From a virus: a stretch of 30,697 bases of DNA. Where the stretch lies: positions 1 through 30,697 of the IMG/VR virus record IMGVR_UViG_3300025305_000087. The stretch is one strand, 5' to 3'. The notes below the pieces were generated by a model, which saw only the letters and a list, made by a program, of their open reading frames with translations, had not been told where the DNA came from and searched no databases. Made by a program: the position numbers and the translations under genes. Below, piece by piece: positions 14,551 to 30,697 of the stretch (positions are counted from its first letter, which is position 1; every line of letters begins with the position of its first letter).

Positions 14551-17500
14551 ATGTCTACCGATTTAATCAAACATACTACTACGTCTACCGTCCTCATCGA
14601 TGATGTAGAGATTCCAGTGGAATTCGCTAATGACCCCGTTGAAGGACTTTCAGGGCGGGATGATTTAGCAGTAAATACTGGAATGCTTTTTGATTTGGAT
14701 GGACATCCTGTCATCACTATGCGGGGAATGAAATTCTCCTTAGATATCATCTGGATTGGTGAGGATAAGAAAGTCGTTGATATCTCTAGAAATACTCTCA
14801 TATCTGTTTTAGGCAACGATACTCTTTACAGTCCTGAAAAGCCTGCTAAGTATGCATTGGAAATTAATGCCGGAGAGGCTCAAAAACGGGGTATTAAGGT
14901 TGGGAATGAGGTCGAGATCAATCTACTTCCAAATAGTGATCTAACTCGACTATTAGTACTGGAAAAAGCTTTAGAACACTTAGTTAAAGTTAATCCAGGC
15001 GAAAGACTTGAATATGTTAAGCATGCCGGAGAAGTGCCTGCCAATACTAGAGTTGTACATACTGAGCGTGGCGCGATGGGTTATTACCCATCAGAGACTG
15101 GACAACATCAGCAAGAACGCATACAAGAGGACATAGGTGAGCCAGTCGAAGTAGTTCAAGCTCCTGAAACTGAGGCTTATGAGATGCCTCAGTATGATTT
15201 TAGTTTTGATGCGTATCTTGATTCCGATAAAGATAGAAATGCTCTCCTTCTCCGTAAGGAGCATTATTCTGACGAAGATTGGGAAAAAGCGATTGGTCGT
15301 TATCGTCAGTTTATAGATGATGATGATAATTTAGTTCTAATGGTTGTTACGTCTATCAGTGGTCGTGAGTTTATTGGGGCTAAGGATGAAGAAGAGTTAG
15401 AAGAAAAGAAAAAAGCGTTTGTATGGAATCAATATTTTTATAAGATTGAGAAAAAAGATGATGGCTCTATAGTTAATGCTTATACCCCTCCACGTACTGA
15501 AGAACCTCCATCTTGGGTAACGGATACGGATAACGCACTGCCTGATATTCCAACGGATACGATACATATTGATGATGTTCCTGGTTGGACTCAAGCATAT
15601 AATTATCGTGGAGCCTTAAAGGTCAATGTGGGAGGAAGGGCTGGCGATATAATCGCGGAAGCTAATAATGTTTCAGGTGTTGTAACTCGCGTATTTACGC
15701 CATCGGTACTTAAGAAATTAAAGCTGATTGATGAGTTACCTGAGGGTGGAGATTCTGATTTTAGAGCCACACAATTTGGACAAACGTCTAGAACTTTAAG
15801 CACAATTGATGATACGACTAAATTGCGGGTAGCTAAACAACTTAGAAAAGCAACGCAGAAGTCTTTAGAACATAGAAAATTACCAGAAAAGTTTTATGTT
15901 TATAGAGGTGGGGCTATTCATAAAGGACTTCTTACCAGAGGTAAAGAAGAACAGGAACGAATAACTAATACTTCGCAAGAACTTTTAGATATTATTCCAA
16001 CGTCGGTATCTTTTGATGTTAATCTAGCAGCTGCTCCAGAGTATACAGGGACTGCTCCTGATTACTATAAAGAGGGTGTTGGGGAAGAAGAAGCTGTTCT
16101 TACGATGTATGAAGTATCTAGAGATGACGTTTTACTTGATATGCCTGCCCTTTTTCATGGTCAAACAGAACAAGAATTAATAGTACTGCCTAAGCACCTA
16201 AAGAATCCACGGAAAGTAGTTCTTCCAAAGATACCTAAATATTATCCAGCTGAATTAGGCGAAGAGGAACTACAAAGACGAGATGAAAAGGCTAAAAAAG
16301 AAGGTAAAGTCGCACGAGCATTAGCTGGAGGAATACACAAATCTAATCTTTCTAAACTCTTGGCATTAACTACGGGTTTAGAGTACTTAATTAAAGCTGT
16401 ACCTGGAGAGAAGCTTGAGTATCTCAAGCCAGGTGAAAATCCCCCTGAAGGCATTCAGATTCAACGTGGAGCTAGAGGGGGTCGTGGTTATTATCCCTCA
16501 GAAGTTACAAGGACTGAAGAAGAATCTACTTTAGAACCTACTGAAGAACGGGAAGTATCTGCCGTTCAGGCTCCTGAAGCTGAATCGACAGAACTTAATT
16601 TAACTGAAAAACTTCCTCCAACTAACCAGACTCCGCCAGAAGATGTTCCTAATTGGATTGAAACACCCGATGGTGCAAGAGCAATGGGAGGATCTATACC
16701 AAGATATTGGTATCATCGACCACCAGGTCATGTTGCTGAAGGAACATCTTCTGGTGGATTACAAGCCTATAATATGGATCCCAAAGAAATAGAGGTAACA
16801 AGTGGCTTTTATTCCGATAAACTTGGGCATCCACATCCTACTGAGCCTGAACAATTTCTTTGGATGTCTCCCGTTTCTAGGATGGCAGAGGGCGAATTTG
16901 TCATCGATATTACAAAGTTAAACAATGCTGATATGCGGTTCACGGGACAGGCTGAGGGTAATTTACTGCATAGAGGCGACATATCTCCAGATGGCATAGC
17001 TCGCCGTCCTAAACCTAAACATCCCCCAACGTCAACATTAGTCGAAGTTTCTGTCAGTGCGGAGCAATTAGGAACACGTTATGGACGAATCGTTCCACGT
17101 ACTCCTTCAGGTGAAGCCCCAACTCATCTATATCGTGTTATGGATAAGAGACAATATGATATTGCTGTAAGGGACAAGGTACTTGCACCAGCAATTGTCG
17201 GAGACAGAATCTATGCTGCTGGTGAACCTAGACTTCGCTATGCAGAGCCATCACCTACTGTTCTAGTTGCAATTGAGTATTCGGATGATGATGGTTGGGC
17301 AGCTAGAGGGGCAAATACTGGTCCTCAGGGTGAATGGGAGATATCCGCAGCAACTTATAATCCTATTCCTATATCTAAAGTAACAGTACTAGCTGAAGGA
17401 GCTAATGGTAGAGAATTAAGAGATAACTATGAATTAATGTCTGGTAATCTTTCTCCTGAAGTTGAAGCTGAGACTTCAAAAATTCATGAACAGAAGAAGG

Positions 17501-20500
17501 GGATAGATTCAAGATGGGCTGATAGTTTCTATTCAGAGGAGATATTTGATCCTAAAATTAGTTCATTTGAGAACGAAATTAATAATGATATTTATACTAA
17601 AACAATAGAAATATTTGAAAATGGAAATTTGCCTGAATTTCTTCAAAATCGGTTAACTACTTTAAAAGATACGTATCCGCACTCAGATTCAGTTGATAAC
17701 TTAGAATCTTGGACAACAAATCCTTCAGCCCTATATGAGGCTGATAATGATCCAAGACATCAATATCTTGATAAAAGGGATAAGGATTTAACACAACTTC
17801 AATTTGATATTGCAGATAATTTAGGTTTACGAGAGTTGGCGATTCGTTCTCCTTTAATAACTTTTCAAGATAGTCCCAAACTTTCAACTAGGCAGGCTTT
17901 TCATTATTTGACAACTGGTAAGTTTAACGATGATTTAGATGAAACTACTAAAGATAAGCTAATTAAAGAGAGTGAAAGTATTAAAGAGGTAATGGATAAA
18001 GAGCAGGAGATATGGAAGAAATATCTTATTGGAGAGGGATCCCTTAGAGTCTATCGGGGAATAGATTTACAAGCGGAGAAACGTAGGAATCCAGAGGTAG
18101 AGTTTCCAGATATAGGTAGTAAGAAACTTAGTAAGGATAGAATACTAAGTTCATGGACTGTCTCTCCTACGAGGGCTGCCGGATTTGGTAATACCATATT
18201 TGCTAGAACAATTACAGCCGATGATATTGTAGCGTCATTTCTTTCTTTAAATCTACACGGTATAAAGAACGAAGGTGAAATTCTTTTACATAATCCTGAA
18301 GACGAGCCTATAGAAGTAGAAGTTGTTCGTACAGTTTCTCAACCACCTGAAAAGAGTGAGGATGAAAGAAACATTCATGCACCAATATATAAACACGATG
18401 TAGATGATGATAATTTATCTAAACTTCTAACTCTTGAGACTGCTTTAGAGTATCTAGCTAAAGCTATACCTGGCGAGAAACTAGAATACTTAAAACCAGG
18501 AGAACAGCCTCCTAAAGGTATTCAGGTTCAACGGGGAGCTAGAGGAGGACGAGGATACTATCCTTCAGAAGTTACTGCTGTTGAAGAAGAAGAGGATGTC
18601 TTAGAGGCTCCAGAAGAGCGTGAGATAGAAGCTGTTCAGGCTCCTGCCATTGAGGAAGACGAAGAATGGAAGAAGTGGCAGGAAGGTGAATATGACGATG
18701 AAGAGTTAGATACTGAAGAACAAAGAGAAGCTGATGAAGAATATGATGAAGATTTTATCAATAAACTTCTTGGATTAGAAGATGAAGATTCTGCTGAAGT
18801 ACAGTCGGTATTAGATGAGTTATGGCCGGATACAGATTGGGATGATATTAATGATTTAGCTGATATTGATGTCGAAGGGATGGATGATTGGAGAGAATTT
18901 TTAGAAGGTATTAAAGTTTCTAAAGAATTTACAGATGAAGAAGCTGAAGCAATTGCCTTTGAAGAAGAAAAGGATGCTCTACGAGCGAAAAAAACTCTTT
19001 CGAATGTAGGACTAGCAACTAGTGAAACGGGTACTCCTAGAAGATTAGCTCTCGCTGATGTATTGGACGGGTCTGATGTTGCTGATGATGTCGATAGTCG
19101 ATTGAAATATAATACGCCCGTTATTCATAGGGGACGTACTAAAAAACAGCAACAATATGATGATAAGCAAGAAGAATATATCGATTTATATAGTGGGGAT
19201 AAGGTTGCAGTTGAAAAAGGGGCGATGGTTAAAAAGGGCGATGTTCTTGTTTCTTCAGCTGACGGGCAATTTCCATACCTCGTAGCAAAAACGGATGGTA
19301 AAGTTACATTTCGTGAATGGTCCTCACATGAGACTCGTAGAATAACGGTTCGTTATATGGACACAAGCGGATCGATAACTGAAACAACTGTTAGAGCGAC
19401 AGATTGGAAAGATGCTGTAAAACGATTTACACAACAATTATCTTGGGATGATTTTAATGATGAGATAGTGCATCAGATTAATCAAGATGACATTAATGAC
19501 GATATGAGTCATTTTCATTTTAAAAATGAAGGAGATGATGACTTTTATCAATCTGATGCTGCTCCACGAGTGCCGGAGAGGAGAATTCGTATGGAAGTTC
19601 TTCCTCCAATAGGTAATTATAAGCAAGAACCTAGCGTTAAAGGGAATCAGCCTAATAAAGAAGATTTAGCAGAGTTTAAACAAGTTCTAGCTCAGGCTTT
19701 TGATGGCTTAAATACTAATACGTTATTTCCTAATGGACGACGATATTTATCTAAACATATATTTAAATTACTATCCAATGTGGAAGAAATATCAGGCGAT
19801 TGGAAAAGACATCCTATTAATATTTCTCCACGACGGGACTCACTGATGGAGGAATTCTCTCCAGAGGGGCGTGCTGAGAAAGAATGGGCCGATAAGCATG
19901 ACATTCCACACAGCTTAATGCCTCAATACACGGCTGCATATTATTCTCCTTCCGACGAAGCTATAACGTATCTTGGAATTAATCCTGATTCAACGGGAAT
20001 GGATTTCAATTTCTTCAGAAAATTATCAAATTGGTATGGATTTGATTTTCTACAAGCGAAGGATTTAGGAGATGGCAAGGCGGAGGTATTGTTCGCTGAG
20101 CCTCAATATGAGGGACATAACGATATTCCAACAGCAGTGGTACCCGATGCAAGAGCCGAATGGGATGTGCGTAATCGTGCGTATAAATCGGTTATTAATT
20201 ATAAAGAATTGTTAACTCGGCATCATGGGATGATTATGATGCATGAATTTGGACATCGTATCGATGCAATGATTAGCAAAGTTGATGCTCCTCATATTGA
20301 AGACATAGATTTTGATACTGACGCTTATCAATACCAACATGAAGAGGACAAGGGTATTGCATTTAAAGCACGTAAAGATGGATTAGGAGGAGTGCTTAGT
20401 CTATTATTTGATCCTGATACCCGGCCTATACACCTTCAGGGAACTAAGCAATCTGCAGAGTTATCAAACTATGCAACAACCAATACTGCAGAATATTTTG

Positions 20501-20844
20501 CTGAAGCCTGGAATGCCTATATAACGGATACTTTTTATCTAAAAGCACGTAATCCTGAAGCATTTGAATTCTTTGAGGCATTAAATACACATGATGTAGT
20601 TACAGATGACGGTAAGCAAAAGTTTTTTGAGACTTTACGTGAGAAGTTTCCGTGGGACGGGCGATTTGCACCTTATCAGGATAGACCTCAAATTGGGAAA
20701 TTAGCTAGGTATCTTGATGAAATTGTAGTTAGCAAAGAAGATGCAGTAAAACGGGGCAAGACCGATCTTGCTGAGCAGTGGGATGCTGTAGCTGAGCGTT
20801 CCGATTATTGGTACAAACGTGGCTCTGCTCGTGGGCGTAAATAA
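14551..20844 (+). CDS. Giant polyvalent protein: DUF192, ADP-ribosyltransferases, barrel, zincin
   Basis: This 2097-residue multidomain protein reads as: DUF192-like domain (~12-115; GLSGRDDLAVNTGMLFD, LDIIWIG, ALEINAG); module 1 (131-210); ADP-ribosyltransferase with R452 (YVYRGG), S485/S487 and E540-x-E542; module 2 (600-678); two ART-like stretches, one from ~716 (YWYHRPPG) and one around R862 (HLYRVMDKRQYD); a second R-S-E ART with R1169 (VYRGI), S1200/S1201 and E1241-x-E1243; module 3 (1289-1368); an acidic linker; an RNA-polymerase beta'-like barrel (~1540-1600); and a zincin with H1898-E-x2-H1902 and acids at 1981/1985. Such fusions are known in phages as polyvalent proteins, often delivered to the host. 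No signal peptide or membrane segment is seen. Cleavage into units is likely but unproven. The start has no clear ribosome site. Confidence 0.85.
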   Translation: MSTDLIKHTTTSTVLIDDVEIPVEFANDPVEGLSGRDDLAVNTGMLFDLDGHPVITMRGMKFSLDIIWIGEDKKVVDISRNTLISVLGNDTLYSPEKPAKYALEINAGEAQKRGIKVGNEVEINLLPNSDLTRLLVLEKALEHLVKVNPGERLEYVKHAGEVPANTRVVHTERGAMGYYPSETGQHQQERIQEDIGEPVEVVQAPETEAYEMPQYDFSFDAYLDSDKDRNALLLRKEHYSDEDWEKAIGRYRQFIDDDDNLVLMVVTSISGREFIGAKDEEELEEKKKAFVWNQYFYKIEKKDDGSIVNAYTPPRTEEPPSWVTDTDNALPDIPTDTIHIDDVPGWTQAYNYRGALKVNVGGRAGDIIAEANNVSGVVTRVFTPSVLKKLKLIDELPEGGDSDFRATQFGQTSRTLSTIDDTTKLRVAKQLRKATQKSLEHRKLPEKFYVYRGGAIHKGLLTRGKEEQERITNTSQELLDIIPTSVSFDVNLAAAPEYTGTAPDYYKEGVGEEEAVLTMYEVSRDDVLLDMPALFHGQTEQELIVLPKHLKNPRKVVLPKIPKYYPAELGEEELQRRDEKAKKEGKVARALAGGIHKSNLSKLLALTTGLEYLIKAVPGEKLEYLKPGENPPEGIQIQRGARGGRGYYPSEVTRTEEESTLEPTEEREVSAVQAPEAESTELNLTEKLPPTNQTPPEDVPNWIETPDGARAMGGSIPRYWYHRPPGHVAEGTSSGGLQAYNMDPKEIEVTSGFYSDKLGHPHPTEPEQFLWMSPVSRMAEGEFVIDITKLNNADMRFTGQAEGNLLHRGDISPDGIARRPKPKHPPTSTLVEVSVSAEQLGTRYGRIVPRTPSGEAPTHLYRVMDKRQYDIAVRDKVLAPAIVGDRIYAAGEPRLRYAEPSPTVLVAIEYSDDDGWAARGANTGPQGEWEISAATYNPIPISKVTVLAEGANGRELRDNYELMSGNLSPEVEAETSKIHEQKKGIDSRWADSFYSEEIFDPKISSFENEINNDIYTKTIEIFENGNLPEFLQNRLTTLKDTYPHSDSVDNLESWTTNPSALYEADNDPRHQYLDKRDKDLTQLQFDIADNLGLRELAIRSPLITFQDSPKLSTRQAFHYLTTGKFNDDLDETTKDKLIKESESIKEVMDKEQEIWKKYLIGEGSLRVYRGIDLQAEKRRNPEVEFPDIGSKKLSKDRILSSWTVSPTRAAGFGNTIFARTITADDIVASFLSLNLHGIKNEGEILLHNPEDEPIEVEVVRTVSQPPEKSEDERNIHAPIYKHDVDDDNLSKLLTLETALEYLAKAIPGEKLEYLKPGEQPPKGIQVQRGARGGRGYYPSEVTAVEEEEDVLEAPEEREIEAVQAPAIEEDEEWKKWQEGEYDDEELDTEEQREADEEYDEDFINKLLGLEDEDSAEVQSVLDELWPDTDWDDINDLADIDVEGMDDWREFLEGIKVSKEFTDEEAEAIAFEEEKDALRAKKTLSNVGLATSETGTPRRLALADVLDGSDVADDVDSRLKYNTPVIHRGRTKKQQQYDDKQEEYIDLYSGDKVAVEKGAMVKKGDVLVSSADGQFPYLVAKTDGKVTFREWSSHETRRITVRYMDTSGSITETTVRATDWKDAVKRFTQQLSWDDFNDEIVHQINQDDINDDMSHFHFKNEGDDDFYQSDAAPRVPERRIRMEVLPPIGNYKQEPSVKGNQPNKEDLAEFKQVLAQAFDGLNTNTLFPNGRRYLSKHIFKLLSNVEEISGDWKRHPINISPRRDSLMEEFSPEGRAEKEWADKHDIPHSLMPQYTAAYYSPSDEAITYLGINPDSTGMDFNFFRKLSNWYGFDFLQAKDLGDGKAEVLFAEPQYEGHNDIPTAVVPDARAEWDVRNRAYKSVINYKELLTRHHGMIMMHEFGHRIDAMISKVDAPHIEDIDFDTDAYQYQHEEDKGIAFKARKDGLGGVLSLLFDPDTRPIHLQGTKQSAELSNYATTNTAEYFAEAWNAYITDTFYLKARNPEAFEFFEALNTHDVVTDDGKQKFFETLREKFPWDGRFAPYQDRPQIGKLARYLDEIVVSKEDAVKRGKTDLAEQWDAVAERSDYWYKRGSARGRK
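14941..15180 (+). repeat. Shared module copy 1 (most diverged)
   Basis: Residues 131-210 of the giant protein. The helix is LTRLLVLEKALEHLVKV, followed by PGERLEYVKHAGEVP, a turn ERGAMGYYPSE and the tail VEVVQAPETE. It differs from copies 2 and 3 by GAMG in place of GARGGRG. It stands between the DUF192 domain and the first ADP-ribosyltransferase. Confidence 0.75.
16348..16584 (+). repeat. Shared module copy 2
   Basis: Residues 600-678 of the giant protein. The helix is LSKLLALTTGLEYLIKA, then PGEKLEYLKPGE, then QRGARGGRGYYPSE, an acidic stretch and the tail EREVSAVQAPEAE. It precedes the middle ART-like domains. It is nearly identical in layout to copy 3. Confidence 0.88.
18415..18654 (+). 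repeat. Shared module copy 3
   Basis: Residues 1289-1368 of the giant protein. The helix is LSKLLTLETALEYLAKA, then PGEKLEYLKPGE, then QRGARGGRGYYPSE, an acidic stretch and the tail EREIEAVQAPAIE. It precedes the acidic linker, the barrel and the zincin domain. Confidence 0.88.
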
Positions 20845-22553
20845 TGGATGGTTTAGATGCGAAACGACAATATATAAAGAATCGAGTACGTCGTGCGTTA
20901 TTAGCTCGTAAAGGTATTATTGAAGACCCGTCTATAATTGGCGTGCCTTTTAGAGGAGGCGTAGAGGATTTTATTGAAAAGTCCAGTAGTACCTCTATTA
21001 CTAAGTCTAGTGATTATAATTTATCTAAACTTTTAGCATTAAGTACTGGCTTAGAATATTTAATTAAATGGAAAATGCCGTGGCAACAGTCTCCTAAACG
21101 AGAATATCTAGCACCTGGCGAAGAAGCTCCAGAGGGTGTCCAAGTAGAACGTGGGCAGCGAGGTGGTCGCTACTATACTCCAGGGGTAGCTAGTTCTGAG
21201 ATTGATAGGGCATTAGCCGATATAGAGACACCTGAAGAAGAACGAGAAATAGACGTAGTTGCTCCTTCAGAACAGGAAGTAGATGTTTCTACTGATGAGG
21301 TAATGTTATCTCGTTCCGGTGTTAATAATTATTTTGCTAAAGTTGCTGCTAAGTTGGAAGATACTTTGGGCGCAATTCGGGCTGATAATGAGGATTATTA
21401 TGTTCCACATAAACCGTTCTTAGGCGAAGGGGTATCTCCATCAGATTTAATATCTGAGAATATAGAAGCAGCTAAGTATACTAATGGAACTAAAGAAGGA
21501 GCGGATGAACCGTCAGGCATGGGGATTCATAGTCGCTATAATTTCACGGTTACTATTCAAAATCAACCATTTATTTTTAAACATGTTACGGGGGAGAATC
21601 GTGGGGAATTACTAGCGTATTCTATAGATAGAGCGTTAGGGTTTAATATTGTTCCTTTTACTAAACAGTATTCTATTGACGTAGAGGCATTAAGCGCACA
21701 TATTCCGAAGTTGGGGGAAAAACTTGACCCATATTCTCCTAGTTCTGCCGAAATAATGACTGAGTCTGCTGTAGGAACGAGGGCTGCGGGACATTTTCAG
21801 GAATTTTGTGGTAATTGTGTGAGTAGAGATGAACAGCCTAAAGTCATGGCTGAGATGTTGGCTACTTCTACGGGTCGTGAAGAAATTTTTAAAATAATGT
21901 TCTTAGATTATCTTACAGGTAATAGCGATAGACATACAGGTAATTATTTAATTACTGAAGATGGTAAGATGGTAGCCATCGATAATGGAATGGTAGGTGG
22001 TGTCCATACTCCTCATCAGGATCAAGCGTCACTAGTATATAATCCCAGTTCATTTGGCTATTTAAGTTTTCCATATGGACTTGCCGCCGAAATGAATAAG
22101 AAATTTACAGAAGGTGGGCAGCCTACTAAGGACGAACTTATTAATGAAGCAGAAACGTTCTTTGATAAGAATTTTGATCAAGATAAATTAGACCCGGCAT
22201 TAGCTTCTATTAATTGGAAAAGTTTCTTTGTCGAAGGGCACAATGCACGTCCTATTGACGGTACTCCTGAGACGATAGAACATTTTAAAAAACGTTTTGT
22301 TGAACGTGCTGTTGTAAATTTTGAAGATGCTTTTAATGTTGGATGGGAGGATGTCGATTCATGGGATCGACGCATGTCCTTTGGCTCAAGCCCACAAGGA
22401 TTATCTCTGCTCTTTGCTCCGAATCTTAAACAAGATTTAGCAGATGAGGGTATCAATATTGAAGTTATCCATTCTTTAAATTTTGATGCTCATGATCTTG
22501 ATGAAATAGATTTGGAGGAACCTGATATCTACGAAGAGGATGAATTCAATTAG
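20844..22553 (+). CDS. Module-tagged PI3/4-kinase/HipA-like kinase
   Basis: This 569-residue protein has a basic N-terminus (KRQYIKNRVRRALLARK), module copy 4 (residues 60-145) and a kinase-like domain. The kinase marks are a candidate ATP-binding K246 (FIFKH), the catalytic loop GNSDRHTGN with D362 and N367, and the metal-binding D380 (VAIDNG). This D-R-H-x2-N plus I-D-N-G pattern is shared by phosphatidylinositol 3/4-kinases, actin-fragmin kinase and HipA-type Ser/Thr kinases. Whether it acts on protein or lipid cannot be told. The C-terminus is very acidic. Its ATG overlaps the stop of the giant gene (TAATG), so the two are translated together. Together with ART domains it may modify host proteins after infection. 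Confidence 0.75.
   Translation: MDGLDAKRQYIKNRVRRALLARKGIIEDPSIIGVPFRGGVEDFIEKSSSTSITKSSDYNLSKLLALSTGLEYLIKWKMPWQQSPKREYLAPGEEAPEGVQVERGQRGGRYYTPGVASSEIDRALADIETPEEEREIDVVAPSEQEVDVSTDEVMLSRSGVNNYFAKVAAKLEDTLGAIRADNEDYYVPHKPFLGEGVSPSDLISENIEAAKYTNGTKEGADEPSGMGIHSRYNFTVTIQNQPFIFKHVTGENRGELLAYSIDRALGFNIVPFTKQYSIDVEALSAHIPKLGEKLDPYSPSSAEIMTESAVGTRAAGHFQEFCGNCVSRDEQPKVMAEMLATSTGREEIFKIMFLDYLTGNSDRHTGNYLITEDGKMVAIDNGMVGGVHTPHQDQASLVYNPSSFGYLSFPYGLAAEMNKKFTEGGQPTKDELINEAETFFDKNFDQDKLDPALASINWKSFFVEGHNARPIDGTPETIEHFKKRFVERAVVNFEDAFNVGWEDVDSWDRRMSFGSSPQGLSLLFAPNLKQDLADEGINIEVIHSLNFDAHDLDEIDLEEPDIYEEDEFN
21021..21278 (+). repeat. Shared module copy 4
   Basis: Residues 60-145 of the kinase protein. The helix is LSKLLALSTGLEYLIKW; a six-residue-type insertion (MPWQQSPK) precedes REYLAPGEEAPEG. 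The turn is ERGQRGGRYYTPG and the tail EREIDVVAPSEQE, which lacks the Q of the other copies. Confidence 0.82.
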
Positions 22554-22561
22554 GATTACCT

Positions 22562-24694
22562 ATGCCAGCTGTTCTTATTTATAGTCAAAAAAATCTAGAA
22601 TATATAGTTCTATCTAATCGTCGTATCTTTAGTAAGGAGAAAGATTTAGTTAGACCTATTGCTAATGCTGATAGGCATGCGTACTGGACAGATTTAGAGA
22701 ATAGAAAGCATATTCAGAAAGAAGGAGAGCGTTTCTTCAAGGAACATGAAGAGTATTTAGGGACTCCGCCTAGTATGGATGATGTTGACGGTAAGATGTC
22801 GCCTGGATTCTTTTTATATCTTACATTCCTGCGTTTCCAGGGTCAGGTCTATCAAGCTTCTATAGTACGAAATTCAGATATCAATAAATTAACCAAAGAA
22901 AAGTCTGAATTTAATGATAATTTAGCTAAATTATTAACTCTTCAGACCGCTATAGAACATTTAGTCAAAGCACGTGAATATGTAGGTAGGAGAGAGGATG
23001 CCCCTGAAGGTGCAGATGTCCAGACGGGGTCTAGGGGAGGACTCTGGTATGATCCTGATAAGGTTAAACAACAAGGCGACATGCCTACTGAGATACAAGA
23101 AGTAAAGGTTGTACAGGCTGAAGAAGCGGATGATGATAAGGAAGAGAGCAGCGAAGCAGATGAAGGTTTTGTTCCTGATGCGGTATTCATGAAGCAGATG
23201 GAGGAGCAAGGCTTTATCGCTGTTAATCCTGACGATAAGGGTACAAAAGATTATCTTGGCTCTTTAAATAAAACAATTACTCTTGATGAAAAAACAGCGA
23301 TGATTGAAGAAGAAGCTATTAAGCTTAAAGTTCCTGCTACTGAATTAGTAGCGATTGAACCTAATCTTAAGATTGTGGATAAAGAAGGTAATGTCGTTCA
23401 GATCACTACTACAGATGGGCAGCTTCTTGCGGTTCAGAAGATTGATACAAGTGCAGAGAATATAAAGAAAGATGATAAGGGGAATATAGTTCTTACCAAG
23501 AATGGTGACCCAAAGTTTAAAAACCCAAGGGGTAAGCTCCATTTACATGTGAATCCTAACGCTCCTAATGACGATCCTCTCAATCCTGATGATAATCACA
23601 TTCAGTATTCTTATCACGATGGATTAAGAAATAAGAAGTCGGGGTATAGTTTAAAGTACGCTGCTTCACAGGATGCTGCTAAATTTGGCAAGATTGTTAA
23701 ATTAGTGCCAAAGATTTCATTGATTCAAAAAGCCGTTAAAGCAGATTTTGCTGATCCTACGAGAAACAATAAGAAATATGGAATGAGGGTTAAGTCTGTT
23801 ACGGAGGCTTCCTTAGCTTTAGCTTTAATTCTTGATACTGCTCGTCGTATTGGTGGCCCCACCAGTGGGTCAACTGTTACTGCGGATGGTAAAGAGGGAC
23901 GGCCTGGGCCTACGAAAGATGACGACGGTAATTTTATTAGAGTGGAAGTACCTACATATGGTGTTACTACTATAAAACCTAGGCATATTAAAGTTAAGGG
24001 TGGGAACGTTTCCTTAGAGTTTATTGGTAAGTCTGGTAAGACCAATTACGTAGCGATCAACGATAAGATGGTTGCTAAGGAACTTGCGAAGCGTAGGAAG
24101 ACGTTCAAAAAAAACCAAGATATTATTGGAATTGGTGCGGGTCCTGTAAGTAAATATTTGAAAGCTATAGCGGGGGATGACTTCAGTCCTAAGAATTTTC
24201 GTACTTATCAAGGTACATTATCGGCTGCAGAAATTTTAGATACTATCAAGGAAATTCCTTCACATTTTGGGAAATATCCAATGATTCATTATGGCACAAA
24301 GACTGTTGATGGTATAAAAATTCCCGTAGAAACGAAGAGCACGTGGGGTGCAGAGTTTCATAATTATATGACCAAGCAGATGAAGGAAGGCGGCATTACT
24401 AATGCGGATGAATACCAACGATTAGGACTCTTGTGGCTTCTTAAGTCTCAGTATATATCTAAACGAGATTTTGTAGGTCGTCCTGTTTCTGAGAAGCTTA
24501 GTAATACTCCTGATATGTCATTAACTAAGTATATTAATCCGGTAGTTTTTGATGACGCTGGATGGAATGCGGCATTTCATATAGAACAGGAAAAATTCAT
24601 GAAGAGCGGTACTCCAAGTAATTTAGCTGCCCTAATCAAAAAAGCACAAAAACCGAAAAAACGTAAGAAACGTAAGAAGGCGGGAACGAAATAA
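22562..24694 (+). CDS. Module-tagged type IB DNA topoisomerase
   Basis: This 710-residue protein has an unknown N-terminal domain (1-120), module copy 5 (121-190), an acidic linker and a C-terminal topoisomerase IB domain (~370-690). Topoisomerase marks are ALILDTARRIGG, YGVTTIKPRHIKV followed by LEFIGKSGK, R547 in NFRTYQGT (the 'K.FRTW.GT' element) and the probable catalytic Y657 in TKYINPVV, preceded by LSNTP. Such enzymes nick one strand through a 3'-phosphotyrosine link and relax supercoils. An insertion rich in Gly and Asp (around GSTVTADGKEGRPGPTKDD) interrupts the core. The tail (KKAQKPKKRKKRKK) is highly basic and likely binds DNA. A tyrosine recombinase is less likely because the GKSGK and FRTYQGT elements are topoisomerase-specific. 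It starts eight bases after the kinase gene. Confidence 0.82.
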   Translation: MPAVLIYSQKNLEYIVLSNRRIFSKEKDLVRPIANADRHAYWTDLENRKHIQKEGERFFKEHEEYLGTPPSMDDVDGKMSPGFFLYLTFLRFQGQVYQASIVRNSDINKLTKEKSEFNDNLAKLLTLQTAIEHLVKAREYVGRREDAPEGADVQTGSRGGLWYDPDKVKQQGDMPTEIQEVKVVQAEEADDDKEESSEADEGFVPDAVFMKQMEEQGFIAVNPDDKGTKDYLGSLNKTITLDEKTAMIEEEAIKLKVPATELVAIEPNLKIVDKEGNVVQITTTDGQLLAVQKIDTSAENIKKDDKGNIVLTKNGDPKFKNPRGKLHLHVNPNAPNDDPLNPDDNHIQYSYHDGLRNKKSGYSLKYAASQDAAKFGKIVKLVPKISLIQKAVKADFADPTRNNKKYGMRVKSVTEASLALALILDTARRIGGPTSGSTVTADGKEGRPGPTKDDDGNFIRVEVPTYGVTTIKPRHIKVKGGNVSLEFIGKSGKTNYVAINDKMVAKELAKRRKTFKKNQDIIGIGAGPVSKYLKAIAGDDFSPKNFRTYQGTLSAAEILDTIKEIPSHFGKYPMIHYGTKTVDGIKIPVETKSTWGAEFHNYMTKQMKEGGITNADEYQRLGLLWLLKSQYISKRDFVGRPVSEKLSNTPDMSLTKYINPVVFDDAGWNAAFHIEQEKFMKSGTPSNLAALIKKAQKPKKRKKRKKAGTK
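22922..23131 (+). repeat. Shared module copy 5
   Basis: Residues 121-190 of the topoisomerase protein. The helix is LAKLLTLQTAIEHLVKA, then REDAPEGADVQTGSRGG, LWYDPDK in place of YYPSE, and the tail IQEVKVVQAEEAD. It is the shortest copy because the PGExLEYLKPGE part is reduced. Confidence 0.8.
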
Positions 24695-27062: not shown

Positions 27063-27526
27063 CAATCAGTGAGCAACTTGGCGTGCCTCTGGAATTGCTC
27101 ACTACGTGGTCATTTACGGGACAGTGGGATGTTTTACCTGATACTTTAGTAATTGGTGATGCCGCATTTCCTAGTGCTATAGAGAAAACAGGGAAAAAAG
27201 ATTCCATCTATGACATAACTACAGCGGATATCACACAAGAAGCAAATGATAAGCTTTTAGACGGTTATAGATTAGTCGGTAATGTAGCTCAAGAAGCATT
27301 ACTTAACGACAATATAAAATTTAAAGATAAGAAACAAGCTTCAGATGCTTTGATTGAGAGTTTAAAAGGACAGGTTTCACTTCTAGGGACTGATTTATCT
27401 CAGCAATTTTTACTAGATGTGGCAAAGATAATACGTGAAGAAGTCACAGACCAAGAAATCCTCCAAAGACTCGGTGTTAAACTCACAGCCCTCGGTAGAC
27501 TTTACAATACTAGGATCTCTGCTTAA
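26954..27526 (+). CDS. Probable terminase small subunit
   Basis: This 190-residue protein sits directly before the large terminase, the usual place of TerS. After a Ser/Gly-rich N-terminus, residues ~18-55 (EKIREEAQKLYERGSELL, then ISEQLGVPLELLTTW) look like a helix-turn-helix that would recognise the packaging site. The rest is helical (KDKKQASDALIESLKGQVS, then QQFLLDVAKIIREEV) and suits ring assembly and TerL contact. The ATG at 26954 lies inside the previous gene, and no later ATG precedes the helix-turn-helix, so it is the best start. Its end overlaps TerL by 92 bases. The subunit is assigned by position and fold pattern, since TerS sequences are poorly conserved. Confidence 0.65.
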   Translation: MAGTNNGKSSGSPKDDWTEKIREEAQKLYERGSELLAISEQLGVPLELLTTWSFTGQWDVLPDTLVIGDAAFPSAIEKTGKKDSIYDITTADITQEANDKLLDGYRLVGNVAQEALLNDNIKFKDKKQASDALIESLKGQVSLLGTDLSQQFLLDVAKIIREEVTDQEILQRLGVKLTALGRLYNTRISA

Positions 27527-29402
27527 TGATCCTAGTATTGACTCTACTACAGATATTGTAGAGTTAGAGTCTGACGACATTTGGAGATTTACTCCAGTTG
27601 ATTTAGAAACTTTTCTTTACGGAGAAGAGTATCTAAATCTTACTATGCGACTGTCGGCTCCCCAGCTTGAGTTTGTTAACAATACCTCTAATATCTTTGA
27701 CCCACCGTTTTTCACAGAAAGTGTATTAATGGCGGGGCAGGGTTCTGGTAAAGATACGTGTTCTATATTAATAGGTTTACGTATCGTTTATTTATTGCAT
27801 TGTCTGAAGAGTCCGCAAGAATATTTTGGGATGGATACTAATGGATTCATCGATTCAATTAATGTGGCTCAGAACGCAGACATCGCACGCAACATCTACT
27901 TTAGCACTTTGTCTAATATTCTACGTAGTTCTCCTTTATTCATTGACGATTCTTTACCTCATTTTATTTCCCCTCGTATTACTCAACAGACTGTTACGTT
28001 TCCTAAAAATATACGACTTATTTCGGGTAACTCTGAAAATGAGTCTTGGCAGGGTTACACACCTATTCTGATTATTCTTGATGAGATTGATGCATTCAAG
28101 AGTGAACAGGAACTACAGCGTAGTCATTCTTTACGTAGTGAGGGAGCCGAAGGCGTATATAACACCGCGAAGGCTTTGATTCAGTCTCGTTTTCCTGGGG
28201 TGGGTAAAGTTATTTGTTTGTCTTGGCCTAGATTTAAAGGTTCATTTATACAAAGACGATTCACTAATGGTAAATTAGAGGATCGTACGTTTGTTTCGTG
28301 TAAAGAAGGAGGGCTTCCTTACACTACGTGGGAGTTTAATCCTTCTAAAAAAGAATCTGACTTTATAGATTTTTATGAAACAGATCCTGTATTAGCTCGT
28401 GCTCGTTTTGAGTGTGATCCACCGTTTGCTCGTGATGCCTATATCAAAGACCCACTTCCTATTTTACGTGCCTTTGATGCTGAGATAGATGAAGTTGGAC
28501 AGATAACTTGGGGACGACTTAAAGAGCATAGAGATGAATCAGGATTGCATATTGGAACCAAATATTATATTCATGTGGATTTAGGATTACGACATGCTAA
28601 TGCTGCCGTATGTGTAGCACATCAGGGAGATGAGCATGTTGTCATTGATGTGCTTAAGATTTGGGAACCTGAACCTGACTATGATGTAGATTTTGCCGAT
28701 ATTGAGAATTTTATACTAGGATTACGCGATAAAGGGCATCGTATCGTTAGTGTGACGTATGATAATTATCAATCTGTTAGTTCATTACAAAAATTAGCTA
28801 AATTTGGTATTCCTGCTAAGTATAAATCTATAGGTAGAAGTAGTAGAGAAGCTTACGATACGTTTAAAGATTTACTTTATCAAGAAAAATTAGATGGTTT
28901 TTACGATAAAGCGACGGTAGAAGAGATTTTAGCATTAGATGTAGTATATGGAGATAAAATTGAAGCTCGTCCTGGTATGAAAAAGGATAGAGCGGATGCT
29001 GTAGTCGGTGCAGTACATGGAGTTTTAAAAGAATATAGTACATTAACTGGTATGCGGAATATGGGCGGAATTAACACACTTTTTGAAAATCCGAACAATA
29101 CACAGACAACTGAGAACGAAAAAGCTAGAAATCCTTTAAAAACTCCTACTAATTCGGGCTGGGGGCGAGATGCAGTTCAAGAACGCGTCGTTAGTAGTAG
29201 TTCTGATATATGTGTTGTGTGTAACCGTGTTGGTGGTATAGAATATACTGATGGATTAAGGAATAGAGTATTTGATGGCGATGGGGCATATTGGCGAATA
29301 TGTTTAGTCTGTGCGTCTAAATGGGTAAAAGAAGGCACAGATTGGACTATTTGTAGAGCACCGGATGATTATTCGATGAAAGAAATACTAGGTACGATTT
29401 AA
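27435..29402 (+). CDS. terL: Terminase large subunit with C-terminal zinc ribbon
   Basis: This 655-residue packaging motor cuts and pumps DNA into the capsid. The ATPase has a Walker A at residues 101-108 (GQGSGKDT), unusual in having Asp after GK, and a Walker B with D216-E217 (ILIILDEIDAF). The RNase H-like nuclease has D382 (IHVDLGLRH), D443 (VTYDNYQS) and D518/D521 (KKDRADAVVGA). The last ~75 residues add a four-Cys zinc ribbon, C593-x2-C596 and C623-x2-C626, beyond the usual end. The start is GTG 27435 inside terS; an alternative is GTG 27474. No ribosome site is obvious, so coupling to terS is likely. The stop overlaps the portal ATG. Confidence 0.9.
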   Translation: MKKSQTKKSSKDSVLNSQPSVDFTILGSLLNDPSIDSTTDIVELESDDIWRFTPVDLETFLYGEEYLNLTMRLSAPQLEFVNNTSNIFDPPFFTESVLMAGQGSGKDTCSILIGLRIVYLLHCLKSPQEYFGMDTNGFIDSINVAQNADIARNIYFSTLSNILRSSPLFIDDSLPHFISPRITQQTVTFPKNIRLISGNSENESWQGYTPILIILDEIDAFKSEQELQRSHSLRSEGAEGVYNTAKALIQSRFPGVGKVICLSWPRFKGSFIQRRFTNGKLEDRTFVSCKEGGLPYTTWEFNPSKKESDFIDFYETDPVLARARFECDPPFARDAYIKDPLPILRAFDAEIDEVGQITWGRLKEHRDESGLHIGTKYYIHVDLGLRHANAAVCVAHQGDEHVVIDVLKIWEPEPDYDVDFADIENFILGLRDKGHRIVSVTYDNYQSVSSLQKLAKFGIPAKYKSIGRSSREAYDTFKDLLYQEKLDGFYDKATVEEILALDVVYGDKIEARPGMKKDRADAVVGAVHGVLKEYSTLTGMRNMGGINTLFENPNNTQTTENEKARNPLKTPTNSGWGRDAVQERVVSSSSDICVVCNRVGGIEYTDGLRNRVFDGDGAYWRICLVCASKWVKEGTDWTICRAPDDYSMKEILGTI

Positions 29403-30697
29403 TGGGATTAGTTGATTCACTAGCTAATGTATTTGGAGGACCAGAAGTTCCTGGTTCTCCTGCATCATTGGCTAGCCGTAATATAGCTGGTGGTGAGGCT
29501 CCTACTAATCTTGATCAGTATGGACGCGTTAATGGTCTATTAGGTACATTAGACTCACTCGTTAAGGCTGCTGAAACGGCACAAGGTGCAAATGGTGCTA
29601 CGGGACGTATGTCTCCGTTGGGACTTGATGCAATCATTCAAGACTGGGTCCGTCAGCAATTCATCTATCGACGTAGTATCTTACAAGACTTATATGTTCT
29701 AGCGTATCAAGTCACAGAGATTAGGTCGGTAGTCTTAGCAATCTTACGTGAAGTCTTTAGAAAAGGCTTTTCTACGTGGACACAGAAATATGTTCGTAAA
29801 TGTATTCAATGTGGCAAAGAGTTTGATGAGGAAGAAGACGAACATTGTGATGACTGTTTTGCATTTGAGATCGTAGAGCAAGACGTATTTGATTCTGAAT
29901 ATGATGAGATTGTTACTAAAAAGGTACGTAAATATAAAAGAGACAGTAATGGCGAAAAAATACCTGTCGGAACATCTGTTCCTGATTTTACTCAACAGAA
30001 AGCATTTGATGATTTAATAATTAATGGAAATAGCTTCCATCAATCTCTAGAATCTGTTCTTCATGAATTTATGACGGACATCTTGATTGCTGATGATGGT
30101 TTCTTATTACTTAATAAAGAGTATGAAATAGATCCCGTATCGGGGAAAATCAGTAAATCAAAGATTTTTGAAGTTACTCGATTACATCCTGCATTAACTG
30201 AATATGACATAGATAGGAAGGATGGATTACCAGAACGTTCTCATTTCTTATGTCCGATTCATAGAGAACAACAGACTCATACATCGCCTGGTAGATGTGA
30301 CGTAATAGCTACAGAAGGGTTTAGATGTAATGCTAGATTACTACCCGCTATGTATCGATACTATTGGCGTGGACGTTATCGTTATTATCTAGCGGATGAG
30401 ATATGTCACGCCTCTTTCTTTAATCCGTCTAAAACTTATGGCTATTCTCCTGTTCTTACAGTCTTTGAGAAAGTTCTGTCTATCGTAGGGGCAGACAGGA
30501 CGCTCTATAGATACTGGTATGAACGGCGAATTCCACCGGGGTTATTAATCACCTATACCGATGATCCTGAATCCTTGGAAACAGAAATTGAACGGGTTAA
30601 GACGCAAATGCTTAATGACCCGAACACGTTCCCGTGGGTTGCAGCATCGGCTAGAAATAATCGTGGTAAGACTGACTTTGTTAAGTTAGCGTATACC
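29402..30697 (+). CDS. Portal protein, 3' partial, with inserted Cys motifs
   Basis: The frame runs off the right edge; 432 residues are visible. The ATG overlaps the terL stop (TAATG). Portal marks are the segment EIRSVVLAILREVFRKGF, then YWRGRYRYYLADEICH, and GYSPVLTVFEKVLSI followed by YRYWYERRIPPGLL, all typical of portal proteins, which form the dodecameric ring through which DNA enters. Two Cys-rich insertions are seen: C134-x2-C137 with C149-x2-C152, and C284-x2-H287 with C299 and C309. Zinc sites in a portal are uncommon, and they echo the zinc ribbon of the neighbouring terminase. A missing C-terminus prevents comparing length. Confidence 0.85.
   Translation, partial: MGLVDSLANVFGGPEVPGSPASLASRNIAGGEAPTNLDQYGRVNGLLGTLDSLVKAAETAQGANGATGRMSPLGLDAIIQDWVRQQFIYRRSILQDLYVLAYQVTEIRSVVLAILREVFRKGFSTWTQKYVRKCIQCGKEFDEEEDEHCDDCFAFEIVEQDVFDSEYDEIVTKKVRKYKRDSNGEKIPVGTSVPDFTQQKAFDDLIINGNSFHQSLESVLHEFMTDILIADDGFLLLNKEYEIDPVSGKISKSKIFEVTRLHPALTEYDIDRKDGLPERSHFLCPIHREQQTHTSPGRCDVIATEGFRCNARLLPAMYRYYWRGRYRYYLADEICHASFFNPSKTYGYSPVLTVFEKVLSIVGADRTLYRYWYERRIPPGLLITYTDDPESLETEIERVKTQMLNDPNTFPWVAASARNNRGKTDFVKLAYT

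Follow-up and report, generated by a model that had tools for sequence, protein, structure and literature searches.

Three consecutive genes of a tailed virus, represented by the 30.7-kb linear IMG/VR record IMGVR_UViG_3300025305_000087 (hereafter the window, meaning the whole stretch of DNA analysed), carry between them five copies of one protein module. We suggest, with a probability of roughly 60%, that this module is a portable head-localisation tag for effector polyproteins delivered by the virion. Judging from gene position and from the fusions described below, the tagged enzymes are probably packaged into the virus particle. The genes, P1 to P3 (14551-24694), lie between nrdJ (12168) and thyX (25115). 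They are listed here with the copies M1 to M5, each given the independent E-value (i-E) with which a profile hidden Markov model built from the other four copies recovered it.

14551..20844, plus strand: P1, a polyprotein of 2097 amino acids (aa), with DUF192, M1, ADP-ribosyltransferase (ART)-like unit B, M2, units C, D and E (E being ART-like), M3, and an uncharacterised region plus zincin (from the open reading frame (ORF), Pfam and segment comparison with relatives)
20844-22553, plus strand: P2 ORF, 569 aa, M4 and a kinase
22562-24694, plus strand: P3 ORF, 710 aa, an N-terminal domain of ~115 aa, M5 and a topoisomerase IB (Topo IB)
14935..15168, plus strand: M1, in P1, divergent (RGAMGYY), i-E 6.4e-15
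16342..16578, plus strand: M2, in P1, i-E 3.5e-34
18409..18645, plus strand: M3, in P1, core motif at 18484-18567 (alignment A3), i-E 4.6e-33
21015..21272, plus strand: M4, in P2, i-E 1.2e-20
22913..23125, plus strand: M5, in P3, short form without the PGE piece, i-E 3.4e-14

A conserved module in five copies

The five copies are genuine homologues: each was recovered by its leave-one-out profile (i-E ~1e-14 to 1e-34), with no other significant match in any window ORF, and a search of the whole record returned exactly five copies. The first-pass annotation, made from the letters of the window, had already placed five copies in three genes, and its starts agree with ours to within a few bases; its statement that all five carry both the PGE and the RGG pieces holds except for M1, which lacks RGG, and M5, which lacks PGE. 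Over its ~80 aa the module runs from an amphipathic helix (NLSKLLxLxTALEYLxK) through a core (EYLKPGExxPxGxQVxRGxRGGxYYP) and a stretch of acidic residues to a tail (EREIxVVQAPE). The first-pass annotation had also allowed that a profile might match only generic low-complexity linkers. That possibility is rejected by the leave-one-out profiles (E 3e-14 to 4e-34) and by the ratio of nonsynonymous to synonymous substitution (Ka/Ks) of 0.14-0.44 between copies; because this ratio indicates purifying selection, the module is no idle low-complexity linker.

An AlphaFold model made with 31 copies shows a helix at residues 3-18, short strands at ~26-50, a second helix at 52-64 and a low-confidence tail, with a mean confidence (pLDDT) of 75. 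No known Pfam, PHROG or PDB family corresponds to the module, the sole match being to phrog_24083 (residues ~7-53 of a 1233-aa uncharacterised family). In a library of predicted viral structures the best matches, none significant, were to proteins of uncultured archaeal viruses, one of them a protease, and of haloarchaeal viruses. A literature search on the motif letters found nothing relevant.

The core in portals, proteases and haloarchaeal viruses

The head-cluster core motif that we define here, xYLxPGExxPxGVxVxxGxRGGxYY, spans ~28 residues and was found at the profile level with the A2 profile, alignment A3 and the whole-record search. The module profile matches the N-terminus of a haloarchaeal zeta-toxin protein, encoded between the portal and the protease and major capsid protein (MCP) genes, as well as a short protein encoded next to it that has two cores; the A2 profile gave E-values of 7e-6, 4e-6 and 6e-5 against proteins of HVTV-1 and HCTV-16. 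HVTV-1 gp116 (L031:28036-28497) is a short protein in which a mostly acidic region is followed by two tandem cores. A DNA pattern for GVxVxxGxRGGxY(Y/F), run against 2.9 million viral contigs, returned 14 stretches, almost all of which contain the complete core, and two further patterns yielded additional core sites; such patterns favour exact matches. The core was thereby found in portal proteins (L033, with a DRAT-type ART; L045; L046; and L073, with MuF), in prohead proteases (L038, L042 and L072), and in NUDIX-PAP2-ART and HNH/HD/DRAT polyproteins.

In the portals and proteases the core is placed after the structural domain and thus does not always stand ahead of an enzyme; the first-pass annotation had asked whether it always flanks enzyme domains. 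Its statement that similar RGG-YY motifs occur in other phage head proteins was correct. Its idea of common handling (capsid packaging, injection or processing) is supported in part: packaging is strongly favoured by the spread of the core over portal, prohead protease, portal-ART, portal-MuF and effector proteins and by its gene neighbourhood. In all 13 contigs with fetched flanks, the genes bearing the core lie beside portal, MuF, protease or MCP genes. On long records the core sites are clustered; one 100-kb record, for instance, has all 8 of its sites within 12 kb (P ~3e-6, core sites within one gene not being independent). Portal and prohead protease act at or in the prohead, and the presence of the same core on effector polyproteins therefore suggests recruitment to the same place.

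Two relatives of the window family, G001 (a 141-kb record) and G002, have a partial core in the gene directly after the portal. The portal, protease and MCP of G001 are homologous to haloarchaeal siphovirus counterparts, and the window portal has its orthologue in that G001 portal. Beyond these viruses, the core pattern gave 18 matches in cellular genome contigs, none covering the YLxPGE half and all judged to be chance. Core peptides searched by tblastn against 50,697 phage records matched only 8 haloarchaeal virus records, which does not prove absence from bacterial phages since short queries have little power; their one match in plasmids was also due to chance.

Several neighbours of the core-bearing genes deserve mention. 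A 357-aa core-bearing protein (L038:5613-6683) has a HEVGH zincin motif (Pfam M90, below cut-off); the HNH/DRAT/kinase-like polyprotein next to it is 1873 aa long and contains three cores. The prohead protease of G001 forms the C-terminal domain of a protein of 970 aa (L065:483-3395) that has long stretches rich in glycine and long acidic ones; after it come an acidic protein resembling a scaffold, encoded separately, and then the MCP. A second near-portal gene (L020:7615-10353) encodes a PI3/PI4K-like kinase domain (Pfam E 2.8e-7), and near-portal genes at L027:10488-12746 and L029:10775-12928 have a kinase-like motif similar by eye, so that kinase cargo is also found inside the head cluster.

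Interchangeable cargo and recombination within the module

A scan of viral contigs identified 13 loci with 37 module copies, window included, the tagged genes again following nrdJ; IMG/VR contigs are fragments, possibly related to one another, and records close to the window may be absent from collections. The tagged genes of the 13 related contigs are arrays of exchangeable cargo units (DUF192, ART-like, GNAT, PI4K/HipA-like kinase and topoisomerase IB) linked by the module or by its tail alone. Separators consisting only of the tail, such as SEVEVVQAPE and PAEEREIEAVQAPE (L009), stand between some units, and fragments of the helix also occur alone in such positions. Units B, C and D, the GNAT unit, a YHMTTNAPA unit of 250 aa, another unit of 600 aa and a ParB-like insert are arranged differently from locus to locus, with the kinase and Topo IB units last. 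In the window, L006 and L007 the DUF192 unit is at the N-terminus, and in L012 and L014 it is internal. In L008, L009, L010 and L012-L017 the module starts within the first residues of the first tagged protein, and because several polyproteins begin in this way, the module is not just a linker.

Two loci have modules that are chimeric at the DNA level: the crossover lies within the module, and entire cargo units have been gained or lost. The 5' end of L007 module 1 resembles L006 module 1 and its 3' end resembles L006 module 2: over the last 32 codons compared, identity to module 2 is 1.00, against 0.29-0.58 to module 1. The DUF192 unit before this module is 93% identical between the two loci and the unit after it 99.5% identical, and the units between the two L006 modules are missing from L007. 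Module 1 of L006 in turn joins a 5' end like window M1 to a 3' end like window M2. Cargo has therefore been exchanged by crossovers inside the module.

Two further rearrangements involve parts of the module. A ParB-like unit of ~107 aa (YAGNHRV) is inserted within the module between core and tail (L009:6693-7040; L012:5826-6173), ParB assignments here being weak (Pfam ParB_N E 0.17 only). Appended to the tRNA nucleotidyltransferase/HD gene of a relative (L029:13872-16214) are a piece resembling the core, a tail reading VEIVQAPE and a further domain of ~240 aa; its orthologues in G001 and G002 stop before the appended part (511 aa).

Cargo units and gene context

The units joined to the module in P1-P3 are as follows.

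14638..14919, plus strand: DUF192 domain, cargo unit A (Pfam PF02643 E 7.5e-18); at other positions in L008, L009, L012 and L014
15169..16341, plus strand: cargo unit B, ART-like, YRGG / TS / ExE motif (alignment A4 with L006, L009 and L010)
16609..17016, plus strand: cargo unit C (YWYHRPPG unit), possibly ART-like (alignment A6 with L006, L008 and L009)
17029..17466, plus strand: cargo unit D (LYRVMDKRQYD unit; alignment A7 with L009 and L014)
17467..18408, plus strand: cargo unit E, ART-like, VYRG / SSWTVS / EGE motif read from sequence; DRAT E 0.12 only
20239..20580, plus strand: zincin metallopeptidase domain of P1, with HEFGH at P1 frame residue 1901 (its Pfam match, ATLF E 2.4e-5, falls just short of the curated threshold)
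21267..22550, plus strand: kinase of P2, PI3/PI4K-HipA type, NSDRHTGN...AIDNG (Pfam PI3_PI4_kinase E 1e-6; profile A5 against the PI4K2A structure E 0.001)
22562..22912, plus strand: N-terminal domain of P3, ~115 aa, kept in all relatives (segment comparison)
23945..24250, plus strand: Topo IB catalytic core (Pfam PF01028 E 1.3e-13; PDB 2f4q E 2.5e-7), with FRTYQGT, and SLTKYINP further on

The zincin, kinase and Topo IB named as cargo in the first-pass annotation are supported by the Pfam matches listed and retain their motifs, the Topo IB having the class features of a catalytic core with FRTxxxT and a Tyr motif. The DUF192 domain ahead of M1 was missing from its list, and the barrel that it placed beside the zincin was not detected, with only a weak biotinyl-lipoyl match (E 0.024). 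Of its ART units after M1 and M2, units B and E have R-S-ExE-type motifs, on which we weakly assign them as ART-like; neither has a significant Pfam match. The R-S-E-type residues are present in alignment A4, with the arginine replaced by lysine in L006. The model of unit B reached a pLDDT of only 49 and its Foldseek list was rich in ART folds (best E 0.46, non-significant); its fold was set aside, the model confidence being too low. The N-terminal domain of P3 is weakly similar (E 0.003-0.012) to a protein of 97-111 aa near the portal, seen as three orthologues (L020:10418-10711).

Downstream of the tagged genes, on the same strand and at a distance of 5-13 kb, lie two genes whose synteny is kept across the 13 loci.

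27435..29402, plus strand: large terminase (PHROG phrog_9 E 2.7e-7)
29402..30697, plus strand: portal protein, cut by the contig end (PHROG portal E 1.4e-28)

In one relative the terminase ORF exceeds its orthologues by ~380 aa and has an insert of intein-like appearance (L027:2459-5572), and the thyX ORF has an insert containing HNH-like and intein-like stretches (L027:2-904). Clues to the host conflict: the core points to viruses of archaea, and the window replication genes (DnaB-like helicase, DnaG-type primase, the beta clamp DnaN, PolA and RecA) are of bacterial type. An archaeal host deduced from the core alone was rejected on account of this replisome.

A proposed head-localisation tag and its alternatives

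We suggest that tagged polyproteins would be drawn into the prohead during assembly, most likely through the core, which is predicted to form a short hairpin and would dock on a partner such as the scaffold, portal, protease or capsid. The polyprotein would stay in the head with the DNA and then pass into the next host, its units (DUF192, ART-like, kinase, zincin and Topo IB) acting there at an early stage of infection. The tail, which is acidic and flexible and has VVQAPE at its end, would separate the cargo and may, speculatively, offer a protease release point, and the module repeats would provide homology for the recombination that swaps cargo. Docking, packaging and delivery are steps that we infer. 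A wider version, toward which we are tentative and lean slightly to the negative, is that in a lineage of tailed viruses that includes those of archaea and others, one docking motif of ~28 residues, borne by portal, prohead protease and effector polyproteins, plugs arbitrary enzymes into the head and recombination between repeats reshuffles the injected enzymes. Several observations weigh against a head-localisation tag. The module model is only moderate (pLDDT 75) and has no match among solved structures. The tagged locus of the window lies ~5-13 kb before the portal, outside the head cluster proper. In G001 proteins, a profile of the helix found nothing above shuffled controls except two tagged genes, rejecting our by-eye suspicion that the N-terminal helix is common to other head proteins; the VVQAPE tail, also tried as a site common to MCP, scaffold and protease, was not found in the G001 MCP, scaffold-like protein or protease, and its last residue varies. 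DUF192 and Topo IB are not known as typical injected effectors.

Cleavage at the VVQAPE tail is plausible, from its sequence, and the whole module could be mainly a cleavage cassette, the prohead protease or the P1 zincin cutting at the tails and the rest serving as propeptide. Tails do recur between units even where the remainder of the module is gone, they are probably flexible given their low confidence in the AlphaFold model, and most end in A-x-E or S-x-E, resembling the AXE motif of the protease of the giant phage SPN3US, in which head proteins are made with long propeptides at their N-termini (PMC10052503, PMC5694885); zincins are proposed as processors of polyvalent proteins (PMC5512222). 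We nonetheless find this doubtful, as the last tail residues are variable (VVAPSE, VVAAK, VQADP, VVTPD), the cores of other virus groups have no VVQAPE-type tail, and such a tail is absent from the other G001 head proteins. The zincin is not a general processor, and was rejected as such, because no HExxH occurs in the tagged proteins of any of the 13 related loci. That the module does no more than link domains and provide a joint for recombination, with no role of its own in the particle, is unlikely: the two loci with chimeric modules (L007/L006; L006/window M1-M2) and their gained or lost cargo would fit it, as would the lone tail and helix fragments between units, but a module at the extreme N-terminus of many polyproteins has nothing to link, the core is conserved in single-copy portals and proteases of distant viruses with other cargo, and the module is under purifying selection. 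Least probable, in our view, is an intracellular interaction domain that gathers early enzymes together or on viral DNA, with the head-cluster sites a neighbourhood effect. Such a domain would suit tagged genes that in the window family adjoin replication and nucleotide genes (nrdJ, thyX, recA, polA), and Topo IB is a DNA enzyme, yet the core is fused directly to portal and prohead protease, which are head-assembly proteins.

How effectors are selected for head packaging is known in few phages. If a short motif shared by portals, proteases and effectors does mark them, virion-delivered effectors would become predictable from sequence across uncultured viruses, and the cultivable haloarchaeal viruses would offer a simple packaging assay for the motif. 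The shuffled cassettes, with crossovers caught in the tag, show how effector arsenals diversify.

Comparison with known systems

Polyvalent proteins, for which packaging and injection have been proposed (Iyer et al. 2017, PMC5512222), are large polypeptides that combine unrelated activities (ART, kinase, GNAT, zincin, ParB-like); their genes lie near late or virion genes, and in some viruses they are fused to MuF. By architecture, P1 shares these features at the sequence level: it joins at least two disparate domains (DUF192, ART-like units and a zincin, with GNAT, ParB-like and kinase units in relatives), and it is encoded in a portal-terminase virus near virion genes. A zincin processing domain, common but not required among polyvalent proteins, is present in P1 (HEFGH) and missing from the tagged proteins of 13 relatives. 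The proteins described here have a tag repeated within one protein and across genes and common to portals and proteases; in the available text of PMC5512222 no such inter-domain tag was found described (no RGG, linker or DUF192, and topoisomerase in the reference list only). The kinase is PI4K/HipA-like by sequence.

Alt and the internal proteins IPI-III of T4 are targeted to the prohead by capsid-targeting sequences (CTS), short N-terminal propeptides of 10-20 residues (PMC5694885). The module resembles these in spirit, with no homology claimed, and, like the T4 CTS and the SPN3US head propeptides, its N-terminal form is predicted to send effectors into the prohead and may be removed by the prohead protease; its tail resembles AXE sites but was not found in other G001 head proteins. 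By size and position, however, the module is not a T4-type CTS, being ~80 aa long, repeated, mostly internal in the window (N-terminal in several relatives) and built around a conserved hairpin-like core.

The zeta-toxin/ParB-nuclease protein of HVTV-1, HCTV-1 and HCTV-5 (Druskaviridae) has a homologous core at the N-terminus of a multidomain protein of 1200-1300 aa, and its gene lies between portal/MuF and protease/MCP in viruses whose portal, protease and MCP are homologous to those of the window's relatives. Unlike the window module, the haloarchaeal proteins share only the core of ~28 aa, without the long helix or VVQAPE tail, and carry different cargo. As in MuF and portal-ART/MuF fusions, a head-morphogenesis protein is joined to a diverse effector; P1-P3 differ from MuF fusions in having no MuF, and where structural and effector parts are fused (L033, L073) a defined core stands between them.

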